Positions 239 through 12,138 of a stretch of 33,896 nucleotides of DNA are shown here, one piece after another (positions within the stretch are counted from its first letter, which is position 1; every line of letters begins with the position of its first letter). Both the position numbers and the translations under genes were made by a program. Source of the stretch: a virus; the IMG/VR virus record IMGVR_UViG_3300002483_000037, positions 1 to 33,896 of that record. One strand, written 5' to 3'. The notes beneath the pieces are model-generated. The model did not search any database. It saw only the letters and a list, made by a program, of their open reading frames with translations, and was not told the origin of the DNA.

Positions 239-886
239 ATGGCAGAGCCTGCTGAAGAAGGTCAGTTTGAGTTAGATGTAGGGGACGCAGAAGCTACTGA
301 AATAGAGCTTGAGCAACCTGAAGAAGCCGAAGAACCGGAAAAAAATGTTCCACGTGGAACATCTAAGCCGGAAGTTGAAGTAGAGCAGGAAACCGCGCCT
401 GAATCAGAGGATGAGATGGCGCAATATAGTGAATCTGTTCAAAAACGCATCAATCGTCTTACGAAAAAGATGCGTGATGCCGAGCGGCGCGAAGAAGAAG
501 CGATTAATTACGCACGAAATGTGCAGGCTGAATCGCAAAAAATTCGTCACCGGATGGAAAATTTAGACCAAGGCTTTATGAATGAATATGGCCAACGTCT
601 TTCTATTCAGCAACAACAGGCCGAAGCTAATCTTAGGCGAGCAGTAGAACTTGGGGATGCTGAAGGCCAAATAGCCGCTCAAAAAGAGCTAACCAACTTG
701 ACTATTGCCGCAGATGGGTACGCCAAAGCGCAACAAAACGCTCAAGCCCGTCAAATGCGACCTAGTGTTGGACCCCCACCGACAAATGTTCCTGTCCAAC
801 AAGCGCCTCCACAACAGCAACGTCCTGACCCAAGGCGGAGCAGTGGGCTGAGAAAAACTCATGGTTTGGTCAAGATGAAGCTATGA
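239..886 (+). CDS. Scaffolding protein, N-terminal part (frameshifted gene)
   Basis: Starts at ATG 239 behind a strong AGGAGG. Residues 1-60 are highly acidic (Glu-rich, disordered), followed by a long charged helical/coiled-coil stretch (about 60-165) and a Pro/Gln-rich linker. This is the usual make-up of phage capsid scaffolding proteins, and the capsid gene lies 1.5 kb downstream. The frame ends at 886 with a low-complexity basic tail (RRSSGLRKTHGLVKMKL) that looks like out-of-frame translation. From 832 the -1 frame instead reads KAEQWAEKNSWFGQDEAMTF and joins smoothly onto the next entry. The intact protein would therefore span 239-1176, about 312 aa. Scaffold role is inferred from composition and position. 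Codons for NVPRGTS in the acidic linker contain a perfect parS-like palindrome (347-362). Confidence 0.75.
   Translation: MAEPAEEGQFELDVGDAEATEIELEQPEEAEEPEKNVPRGTSKPEVEVEQETAPESEDEMAQYSESVQKRINRLTKKMRDAERREEEAINYARNVQAESQKIRHRMENLDQGFMNEYGQRLSIQQQQAEANLRRAVELGDAEGQIAAQKELTNLTIAADGYAKAQQNAQARQMRPSVGPPPTNVPVQQAPPQQQRPDPRRSSGLRKTHGLVKMKL
347..362. promoter_or_regulatory. Perfect parS-like palindrome (candidate ParB-binding site)
   Basis: TGTTCCACGTGGAACA is a perfect 16-bp inverted repeat. It equals the parS form known from Pseudomonas and other Proteobacteria and differs from the general parS consensus TGTTTCACGTGAAACA at one position per arm. It lies within the acidic, low-constraint part of the scaffolding gene. 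No parB gene is visible in the window. Confidence 0.6.
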
Positions 887-2353: not shown

Positions 2354-3259
2354 ATGGCTATTTCTCGCGCCCAGTTGGCGAAGGAACTTGAGCCCGGGCT
2401 TAACGCTCTTTTCGGACTTGAGTATGATCGCTATGAGCAGGAACACGCTGAAATCTTTGAAGAAGAGACTTCAGATCGTGCTTTTGAAGAAGAAGTGATG
2501 CTGTCTGGCTTCGGTACTGCACCGGTTAAGTCAGAGGGTGGTGCTATCTCGTTTGATGACGCGCAGGAAACATTTACTGCACGTTATACGCACGAGACAA
2601 TTGCACTGGCGTTTTCAATTACCGAAGAGGCAATTGAAGACAACCTGTATGACCGCCTTGCTTCTCGTTACACCCGTGCTTTGGCACGATCCATGTCAAC
2701 CACTAAGCAAATTAAGGCTGCGTCTATTTTGAACAACGCCTTTAGCACCGGCTCTCCTGTTGGAGATGGTGCGGCTCTTTGCTCTGCGGCTCACCCTTCT
2801 CTTTCAGGGAACCAACGAAACCTGTTGTCAACTGCAGCTGACCTCAACGAGACTTCTCTTGAGCAGATGTTGATTGACATTGCTGGTTTCACGGATGAGC
2901 GTGGATTGAAGATTGCGGTACGTGGTATGAAGCTGATTATCCCGAAGGAACTGCAATTTATTGCAGAGCGAGTATTGAACTCTAACCTTCGTCCGGGTAC
3001 GGCTGACAACGACACTAACGCTATGAAATCCATGGGTATGATCCCTGACGGTGCTGTAGTTAACCATTTCTTGACCGATACGGATGCGTTTTTCATTAAG
3101 ACTGACGCACCTAACGGCTTCAAGATGTTTAATAGAAGCCCCATCAAGACTGCCATGGAAGGCGACTTTGACACTGGCAACATGCGCTTCAAAGCGCGTG
3201 AGCGTTACAGTTTCGGAGTCTCTGATTGGCGTTGTGTCTTTGGCACCCCGGGTGCCTAA
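2354..3259 (+). CDS. Major capsid protein (HK97-like fold, Mu gpT-like type)
   Basis: A 301-aa protein beginning at ATG 2354 after a G-rich ribosome-binding site. Its N-terminal part is acidic and helical (YEQEHAEIFEEETSDRAFEEE), followed by the block ETIALAFSITEEAIEDN (residues 81-97) and a helix rich in Thr/Lys/Arg. The middle part holds the AHPSLSG region and VRGMKLIIPKELQFIAERVL, which resembles Mu gpT-like coat proteins of the HK97 fold. The C terminus (MRFKARERYSFGVSDWRCVFGTPGA) is of the type seen in these coat proteins. It lies downstream of scaffold and decoration genes and immediately before a strong terminator. No prohead protease is visible, and with a separate scaffold none may be needed. 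Confidence 0.88.
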   Translation: MAISRAQLAKELEPGLNALFGLEYDRYEQEHAEIFEEETSDRAFEEEVMLSGFGTAPVKSEGGAISFDDAQETFTARYTHETIALAFSITEEAIEDNLYDRLASRYTRALARSMSTTKQIKAASILNNAFSTGSPVGDGAALCSAAHPSLSGNQRNLLSTAADLNETSLEQMLIDIAGFTDERGLKIAVRGMKLIIPKELQFIAERVLNSNLRPGTADNDTNAMKSMGMIPDGAVVNHFLTDTDAFFIKTDAPNGFKMFNRSPIKTAMEGDFDTGNMRFKARERYSFGVSDWRCVFGTPGA

Positions 3260-3265
3260 AAACAG

Positions 3266-3289
3266 AGCCGCCTTCGGGCGGCTTTTTTT
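3266..3289 (+). terminator. Intrinsic terminator after the major capsid gene
   Basis: A 7-bp stem AGCCGCC/GGCGGCT closes a TTCG tetraloop and runs into seven T residues. This is a textbook rho-independent terminator beginning 6 bases after the capsid stop codon. It ends the head transcript or reduces expression of downstream genes relative to capsid. Confidence 0.95.
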
Positions 3290-3304
3290 GTTCCACGTAG
3301 AACA
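3289..3304. promoter_or_regulatory. Second parS-like palindrome, 15/16 match
   Basis: TGTTCCACGTAGAACA differs from the perfect site at 347-362 by one base (G to A). It abuts the T-tract of the capsid terminator, in the gap before the next gene, so no protein sequence explains it. It could be a ParB site or a phage operator. Confidence 0.5.
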
Positions 3305-3320: not shown

Positions 3321-3374
3321 TTTTTCCTGACAGTCTCATCCCGAGGCTGACACTAGCCACGACAGGAGAACCAC

Positions 3375-3857
3375 ATGGCTAATACTACGTTTAACGGTCC
3401 CGTCCGTTCTGAAAACGGTTTTTCAGATATTACTAAAAACTCTACTACTGGCGCTGTAACCAGCACCATGACGCTTTCTACCTACGAAACCACCATTACG
3501 GTGGCTGACGGTGCCACTACGGGCAAAGAGTCTGCAATCGGCATTCCGGATAATTTTATTCCTATGGGTGTCACAATTGCTGTTACCACAGCCGCCGCAA
3601 ACTCCGTCACCCTTAACGACATTGGCACGGACGCAGACACTGACGGGTTCGTCGATGGTATCTCTGCCGCTCTCAACTCTACAGGCTTCAAGGGATTTTT
3701 CCCCTGTAACGGCGTTCTCGGTATGTCTGGTGGAACAACCACTGCGGCTACGGGCACAGCGGATGAGGTTGAGCTTGTCGTTTCGGGTGATCCTGGCGGA
3801 GATACCGTCATTGTCTTGAAGTTTTTTGGCATATCCAGCACTTCTGACGCATCCTAA
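3375..3857 (+). CDS. Putative virion structural protein
   Basis: A 160-aa protein starting at ATG 3375 behind AGGAG. It begins MANTTFNGPVRSENGF, a start I recall from small structural proteins of marine phages. It is rich in Thr, Gly, Ala and Val with alternating beta pattern, has no enzyme motif, and one isolated Cys. The Thr-rich segment after residue 20 and the hydrophobic IPDNFIPMGVTIAV suggest an all-beta fold such as a head decoration or fibre-like protein. It begins a new transcription segment after the capsid terminator. The function is inferred from composition and place. Confidence 0.6.
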   Translation: MANTTFNGPVRSENGFSDITKNSTTGAVTSTMTLSTYETTITVADGATTGKESAIGIPDNFIPMGVTIAVTTAAANSVTLNDIGTDADTDGFVDGISAALNSTGFKGFFPCNGVLGMSGGTTTAATGTADEVELVVSGDPGGDTVIVLKFFGISSTSDAS

Positions 3858-8122: not shown

Positions 8123-8569
8123 ATGGCCTTTTCAGGAAACTTCATGTGTACGTCTTTTAAGCAGGAATTGCTCCAGGCGAAACACGATTTTACAAATAGC
8201 TCTGGCGACACATATAAGCTGGCGATGTACACCAACTCCGCTAGTTTTAATGCGGCGACCACGGCGTATACGACCAGTAACGAGATCAGCGGCACAGGCT
8301 ACTCAGCAGGCGGGGGAACACTGACTAACGTGACCCCGACTACCTCGGGAACCACGGCCTTGACCGACTTTGCCGATCTCACGTTCTCCAGCAGCACCCT
8401 GACGGCGCGTGGGGCACTAATTTATAACACCACGGCAGGTAGTGGCAGCGGAACCACAAATACCGTTCTTGTATTGGATTTTGGCGCTGACAAGTCATCA
8501 AGCTCTGGTGACTTCACCATCGTGTTCCCAACTGCTGACGCATCTAACGCTATTATTCGGATTGCATAA
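8123..8569 (+). CDS. Virion structural protein at the neck/fibre boundary
   Basis: The start is ATG 8123, eight bases after AGGAG, giving 148 aa (MAFSGNFMCTSFKQELLQ...). Frame upstream is open but would overlap the previous gene. The sequence is all-beta: DTYKLAMYTNSASFNAATTAY, GYSAGGGTLTNVTP, then FADLTFSSSTLTARGALIYN and VLVLDFGADKSSSSGDFTI, ending NAIIRIA. I recall this family as widely conserved in marine phages immediately before tail fibre genes. It probably sits at the tail base or fibre attachment point; the precise place in the virion is inferred. Confidence 0.65.
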   Translation: MAFSGNFMCTSFKQELLQAKHDFTNSSGDTYKLAMYTNSASFNAATTAYTTSNEISGTGYSAGGGTLTNVTPTTSGTTALTDFADLTFSSSTLTARGALIYNTTAGSGSGTTNTVLVLDFGADKSSSSGDFTIVFPTADASNAIIRIA

Positions 8570-10953: not shown

Positions 10954-12138
10954 ATGGCCTTAATTATTAAGGACAGAGTAAAAGAGACAACAACGACCAC
11001 TGGCACGGGCAACGTGGCCTTGGGCGGCGCGGTCAGCAACTTTGTCACGTTTTCTTCTGTTCTGTCAGACAGTGATACAACTTACTACGCGATTGTAGAC
11101 AGCAACAACTCTGACTTTGAGGTGGGGCTGGGAACATACGTCAGCAGCGGTAATACAATTGCCAGAACTACGGTGCTTGCAAGCTCCAACAGCGGCTCTG
11201 CTGTTAGCTTGTCAGCAGGAAGCAAGGTTATATTTTGCGCGTTTCCAGCCGACAAAGCGGTGGTTGAAGACGCCAACGGTGTGGTGTCGATTGAGAACCT
11301 GCAGTTCGACACTAACGCGATCAAGTCCACAAACACCAACGGAAACATACAGCTATTTCCAGCAGGGACGGGCTTTACAGAGCTATACGGCAATACCAAT
11401 GCCGGTGCGATCCGGTTTAATTGCGAGTCAAACAGCCACGGTGTAACCCTAAAGGGGCCACCTCACAGCGCCTCTGCTACTTACAGCCTGGAGCTTCCTA
11501 ACGGTGACGGGTCAGACGGCCAGCTTCTCAAAACAGACGGCAGCGGCAAGCTGGCGTTCACAAGCTCGCTTCCCGGCATTACTGCAACAGCCTCAGAGAT
11601 CAACATCCTTGATGGTGTTACTGCAACAGCCTCAGAGATCAACATTTTGGATGGGGTTACTGCAACAGCCTCAGAGATCAACATTTTGGATGGTGTTACT
11701 GCAACAGCCTCAGAGATCAACTATCTCGACATTACTACCTTGGGTCTGACGCAGGCAAGCAAGGCTGTGACAGCAGATGCAAACGGTGTGGTTAGCTTTG
11801 ATAACGGCACAATTGAAGAGGTTACGACCGTCACATCTAGCTCTAATGCCGCCACCATTAACCTGCGTGACGGCAATTTATTTGAGCATGATCTGACAGA
11901 AAACGTCACCTACACCTTTAGCAACCCAGCCGCCGCAGGCAGGGCGTCATCATTTGTGCTGAAGGTGATTCAAGACAGCAGTGCCAGAACGATTACATGG
12001 CCCGGAAGTGTTGATTGGCCTGCGGCTACAGCGCCCACCCTGACTGCAACAAACAATGGCGTGGATGTATTTGTGTTCTTCACTATTGATGGCGGCACAA
12101 CCTATTACGGGTTTGTTGCTGGGCAAGCAATGGGATGA
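10954..12138 (+). CDS. Tail fibre 2, with TASEINxLDG repeats
   Basis: A 394-aa protein from ATG 10954. The first 105 residues repeat the N-terminal module of fibre 1 (MALIIKDRVKETTTTTGTG), which suggests that both attach to the same virion site. An LPNGDGSDGQLLKTDGSGKLAF module follows, then four copies of a 13-aa unit TATASEINILDGV (about residues 209-260), and a C-terminal region ENVTYTFSNPAAAGRASSF ... TWPGSVDWPAATAPTLTA that is common in phage fibres. The TASEINxLDG unit is a familiar shaft repeat. The protein overlaps the next start (ATGA). Confidence 0.8.
   Translation: MALIIKDRVKETTTTTGTGNVALGGAVSNFVTFSSVLSDSDTTYYAIVDSNNSDFEVGLGTYVSSGNTIARTTVLASSNSGSAVSLSAGSKVIFCAFPADKAVVEDANGVVSIENLQFDTNAIKSTNTNGNIQLFPAGTGFTELYGNTNAGAIRFNCESNSHGVTLKGPPHSASATYSLELPNGDGSDGQLLKTDGSGKLAFTSSLPGITATASEINILDGVTATASEINILDGVTATASEINILDGVTATASEINYLDITTLGLTQASKAVTADANGVVSFDNGTIEEVTTVTSSSNAATINLRDGNLFEHDLTENVTYTFSNPAAAGRASSFVLKVIQDSSARTITWPGSVDWPAATAPTLTATNNGVDVFVFFTIDGGTTYYGFVAGQAMG
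11581..11733 (+). repeat. 39-bp tandem repeat, 4 copies, in fibre 2
   Basis: Copies begin at 11581, 11620, 11659 and 11698, exactly 39 bases apart. They differ by only a few bases in the first three copies; the fourth is cut short by divergence. The unit encodes TATASEIN(I)LDGV. Near identity at the DNA level points to recent copy-number change by recombination or slippage. Confidence 0.95.

Follow-up and report, generated by a model that had tools for sequence, protein, structure and literature searches.

A 16-bp palindrome that occurs once in exact form and once with one mismatch in the DNA analysed here probably represents a selected 'orphan' parS, that is, a loading site for the chromosomal ParB protein of the host, carried by a phage in which no Par proteins were detected; on the comparative sequence evidence set out below, we give this reading a probability of roughly three in four. 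The window (the whole stretch of DNA that was analysed) comprises 33.9 kb out of a 34.7-kb IMG/VR virus record, itself possibly incomplete, and has a GC content of 48.9%. The capsid proteins of Pelagibacter phage HTVC023P and phage DSL-LC04 share 73% identity with that of the window, which places this marine phage among the HTVC023P-like podophages.

parS-type sites in the window

As listed in Table 1, the chromosomal-type parS pattern TGTT(Y)CACGTG(R)AACA is present in the window in exact form within a scaffold-like gene and with one mismatch in the gap that follows the major capsid gene, where relatives have the exact form. The first-pass annotation had described the gap copy as one base off a perfect copy and as lying in a non-coding gap behind the capsid terminator, and both points were confirmed: 15 of the 16 bases match, with the hairpin on the 5' side and the RF03012 RNA on the 3' side. 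The two sites are 2,943 bp apart, and the claim that two copies within 3 kb exceed chance was borne out by 100 dinucleotide-preserving shuffles of the window, which contained no sites at one mismatch or fewer (mean 0.00). Two additional matches, at 8169 and 31137, have three mismatches each, which is chance level, and they were rejected as parS sites. For the promoter that had been thought possible next to the gap copy, a simple sigma-70 scan gave no match, although a TATAAT-like element was seen by eye in relatives just 5' of the leader RNA.

Table 1. Features of the window that bear on the two palindromes.
Feature	Position	Strand	Remarks
Scaffold-like ORF, phrog_28737 (function unassigned)	239-886	+	Contains the exact parS
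Exact parS palindrome TGTTCCACGTGGAACA	346-361		In-frame VPRGT within the variable acidic linker of the scaffold-like protein
Major capsid protein, Phage_capsid_4 / Mu-like gpT	2354-3259	+	
Terminator-like hairpin	3264-3285	+	Directly before the gap palindrome
Near-parS palindrome TGTTCCACGTAGAACA	3289-3304	+	15/16 versus TGTTYCACGTGRAACA; gap 3' of the major capsid gene
Mu-gpT-DE leader RNA (RF03012)	3325-3377	+	Rfam, 67.1 bits; downstream of the palindrome, ends at the next start codon
Gene 3' of the gap, phrog_36974	3375-3857	+	Same-place gene in phage DSL-LC04 annotated as cement protein

The product of the ORF at 239-886 is called scaffold-like from its place upstream of the capsid gene. 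In the window, this gene (239-1176) consists of two overlapping ORFs of 215 and 97 aa, whereas relatives have a single ORF of about 305 aa; the break, near 835-886, is either a frameshift or an error of sequencing.

The Mu-gpT-DE RNA shares the capsid gap with the palindrome and lies just downstream of it, but it is found with or without the palindrome and is a neighbouring, distinct element; the palindrome at 3289-3304 is not part of the RNA at 3325-3377. By eye, TGGCTA at the start codon is a possible pairing partner of TAGCCA in the leader RNA of the window, and pairing of this type between the leader and the start region is seen when the window is folded. Relatives in which the gene starts with ATGGGT (e.g., L030 and L043) have CCCA in the leader instead, an exchange that resembles covariation between the leader and the start of the gene. 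In one relative (L067), the capsid gap contains an extra gene from 9237, the N terminus of which resembles FAD-dependent enzymes (halogenase-like by eye), and the leader RNA is found 3' of this gene, at 11025.

Retention of the palindrome and turnover of its position

The capsid gap was compared in 80 relatives found by means of the capsid protein, the alignment that the first-pass annotation had proposed as a check, and the exact palindrome was found at the same place in eight of them (L001-L004, L006, L007, L013 and L015; nine locus copies). Because the majority of the closest relatives of the window have the exact 16-mer in this gap, the copy in the window is a one-base decay of the palindrome. 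In other relatives, the arrangement differs: L010 and L012 have the palindrome elsewhere in the gap, at the place expected for the inner hairpin of the leader, and L039 and L067 have near copies 5' of the terminator. In six relatives (L005, L008, L009, L011, L014 and L016), the terminator and leader RNA are kept and the palindrome is absent from the gap. Retention of the terminator and start site without the palindrome had been named in advance as evidence against the parS reading, and it does occur locally in these six; however, L005, L009 and L011 retain the scaffold copy, and the full record of L017 has two copies elsewhere, so that palindrome-free gaps count against an operator specific to the gap and not against parS. 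The presence of a putative parS is thus retained among relatives while its position turns over.

Selection at the DNA level is indicated by the copies within genes. That at 346 encodes VPRGT and has been inserted, in frame, into a hypervariable acidic linker, which is shorter in relatives that lack the copy. In 10 sequences (the window and nine relatives), not one of the 16 bases varies, whereas the flanking third positions have a mean identity of 62-71%. In a second clade, recovered using the capsid of L125, parS lies inside a different small gene and its third positions are again invariant; the encoded residues are VPRGT, VPRET or VSRET, with the P/S and G/E changes confined to positions that are degenerate in the search pattern. 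The first base of the site is altered in L280, and many IMG/VR records from this clade have no site. Coding copies in other genes are likewise read as V[PS]R[GE]T; that the frame is shared is partly expected, because one of the two other frames meets a stop codon when the variant has A at position 12. Conservation of the DNA by selection was therefore seen in two clades, with third positions invariant and flanks variable, and this pattern is what a DNA-binding protein would impose, not what a peptide would.

The palindrome is also far commoner in the family than chance would give and in excess over every control that was applied. The sequences of relatives (926 kb) contain 34 perfect palindromes of 16 bp; parS accounts for 21 of these, and the remaining 1,958 permuted half-sites, taken together, for none. 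All seven family records longer than 40 kb hold one to three exact parS sites (13 in total), and the same seven gave zero when a backwards-read control was searched. Across all of IMG/VR, exact parS was found in at least 120 stretches, compared with 10 and 23 for two control palindromes. Protein matches to the window were present at 11 of 120 parS loci among the matches listed, and most of these were clear family members.

Within the family, the exact sites fall into 29 flank classes, or about 27 once scaffold copies that had been split by clustering are merged, and both known parS variants are present. In the seven long records, most sites are intergenic even though a greedy ORF estimate puts the coding share of the DNA at about 93%; two ORF calls behind this tally were corrected by eye. 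The site called coding in L221 sits just 5' of a likely start codon, and that before terL in L217 overlaps just a short antisense ORF; the site at 10943 in L220 is likewise just upstream of terL. Multiple close sites are found in the window (the pair 2.9 kb apart), in L218 and L220 (pairs 147 and 156 bp apart, respectively) and in L165, which has five. Among the IMG/VR viral contigs, L112 has five exact sites within 0.8 kb.

In ten named records, most of them isolates, the exact site is absent from nine, including HTVC023P, DSL-LC04, CRP-901 and Caulobacter phage RW, and HTVC027P has a site with one mismatch; the trait is therefore common and not universal. The one named phage with an exact site is Alcaligenes phage vB_Af_QDWS535, in which it lies at 2435-2450 of L343 (47934-47949 of OK172329.1), inside an annotated ORF of 54 aa and in a region between leftward genes and a rightward gene at 48895.

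Host ParB as the candidate binder

The sequence TGTTCCACGTGGAACA is that of parS2 and parS3 of Pseudomonas aeruginosa, which are documented chromosomal parS sites, and a parS with one mismatch is bound slightly less by P. aeruginosa ParB (PMC4368675). Exact matches, mostly to TGTTTCACGTGAAACA, were found in 19 of 26 sampled alphaproteobacterial genomes, and these matches often come as two sites separated by about 2 kb. The prevailing form in this alphaproteobacterial sample is the T/A variant; the C/G variant is the Pseudomonas type (PMC4368675). From the identity of the 16-mers to documented parS and the exact matches in Alphaproteobacteria, we infer that host ParB is the binder of the phage sites, which we consider quite likely. 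Such loading would be compatible with lytic growth, since an engineered lambda-parS in the presence of CFP-ParB still replicates and lyses (PMC13190303).

A phage-encoded binder was looked for in 25 family records. Neither ParA (PF13614, AAA_31) nor HTH_ParB (PF17762) was found in them, and ParB_N (PF02195) gave no convincing match, so that a complete ParABS system of the phage-plasmid kind, with its own ParA and ParB, was not found; because many family records are fragments, the absence of Par proteins is no proof for any single record. The one weak ParB_N-like match, below the cut-off at 22.4 bits, is at 2510-2704 of G021 in an open frame of 972 aa, and G021 has no parS. Tyrosine integrase (PF00589) was not found in the same 25 records, which gives no indication of an integrating temperate phage, and a prophage or plasmid lifestyle was set aside along with a phage-encoded ParB or ParA. 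A scan for prophage copies, by which the host might have been recognised, gave just four MAG contigs of very mixed taxa, probably binned-in phage. Among the parS-positive viral contigs listed, 50 were 16 kb or longer; 47 of these gave no match to ParB_N and 46 none to tyrosine integrase, which suggests that orphan parS extends beyond the present family.

The sites can be set beside several known systems. P1 and some mycobacteriophages are phage-plasmids or extrachromosomal prophages with their own ParABS. Centromere-like sites are present on the phage genome in both cases, but those phages supply their own ParA and ParB together with the centromere, whereas here none was found, nor a tyrosine integrase. 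Chromosomal parS of ParABS systems, such as parS2 and parS3 of P. aeruginosa, is the same 16-bp palindrome, including the two common variants, and likewise occurs in a few copies near each other, some of them in genes; the sites described here differ in being on a phage, in not lying beside parAB or oriC, in the turnover of their position, and in that ParA and a convincing ParB were not found. According to the account of Meijer et al. 2005 given in PMC9437464, host Spo0J (ParB) assists in the trapping of Bacillus phage phi29 DNA in spores, and as far as that account goes, it is a precedent for a virulent phage using a host chromosome-segregation protein, although in a sporulation setting. Sites for host regulators are also known on phages, namely CtrA boxes with 'lytic deferment', LexA and Spo0A (PMC9437464). 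There, too, the protein that binds sites on the phage belongs to the host and is linked to the host cell cycle, but those sites are promoter operators, whereas the parS sites are not limited to one promoter and some are within genes. The selected parS-type site described here, most likely one for host ParB, would be a new form of this known use of host DNA-binding proteins by phages.

Alternative readings and possible functions

The palindromes might instead be operators of a phage repressor with a parS-like target, controlling the promoter of the post-capsid gene, an alternative that the first-pass annotation had itself raised. The gap copy does lie between terminator and leader RNA and adjoins the TATAAT-like element, and the site pairs in L218 and L220 flank likely promoter regions. 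However, since the same gap architecture is found in relatives that lack the palindrome there, a gap-specific operator was rejected as the main reading, and with sites at about 27 unrelated places, several of them within genes, with both parS variants in the family, and with HTH_ParB absent and ParB_N reduced to one weak match in the 25 records, operator function in general is improbable. It is very improbable that the palindrome works as RNA, as a hairpin of the terminator or the leader RNA: the palindrome of L010 and L012, where RF03012 was not called, is predicted to fold as the inner hairpin whose place it occupies, but in the window it lies between the terminator and the RNA; pairing would suffice for a hairpin, with no need of the exact sequence, and no structure-keeping alternatives occur at the same spot; and the coding copies, like those elsewhere, are outside the Mu-gpT-DE RNA. 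Hardly credible at all is a VPRGT peptide motif with a coincidental gap copy, to which the single frame of the coding copies would lend itself, because synonymous positions are invariant, the motif occurs in unrelated proteins and in variable linkers, and exact copies are also intergenic. The parS reading of the first-pass annotation is thus supported comparatively, by conservation in the gap and in genes, by the excess over controls and by identity to documented parS.

A different kind of alternative keeps host ParB as the ligand and makes it a copy-number timer or decoy, with ParB silencing late genes early in infection and dilution by replication releasing them and disturbing host segregation. 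Spreading of P. aeruginosa ParB is known to silence promoters nearby (PMC4368675), and there are sites near late genes (the capsid gap, the scaffold gene, and just upstream of terL in L217 and L220); other sites are in regions away from late genes (L218, L220 at 3643/3799, and L221), and a high copy number would be favoured if titration were the sole function, but one to three sites is the usual number per genome. This alternative is unlikely, although less so than the three above. As to the benefit of an orphan parS, we tentatively favour the carriage or positioning of the phage genome; some other benefit is possible, and a titration or silencing switch is rather unlikely.

If the orphan parS reading is correct, host ParB-CTP clamps would load after injection at the one to three parS sites of the phage and slide onto neighbouring DNA, and the phage genome would thereby be handled like the centromere region of the host, with ParA positioning or segregating it and SMC possibly compacting it. 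When an infection is slow or stalled, such handling would help the phage to persist and to be shared out. Any silencing of late genes near the sites would lessen with the dilution of ParB by replicating phage genomes.

Within the open-access literature searched, orphan parS in virulent phages was not found to be reported, and the open-access papers quoting the 16-mers that were examined concern chromosomal parS. We would put forward, at less than even odds, the broader proposal that many virulent phages keep orphan host-type parS as portable centromeres, by which the partition machinery of the host positions, shelters or shares their genome with no phage Par protein. If this is true, phages that lack partition genes make routine use, via a 16-bp site, of a machine that nearly all bacteria have, which would be a compact cis-acting route to persist in or organise the infected cell and a test case for ParB clamps and SMC on foreign DNA. 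The parS variant (T/A versus C/G) would then be a host-linked signature, and simple site-removal experiments would be possible in isolated phages, for which QDWS535 is a suited isolate.
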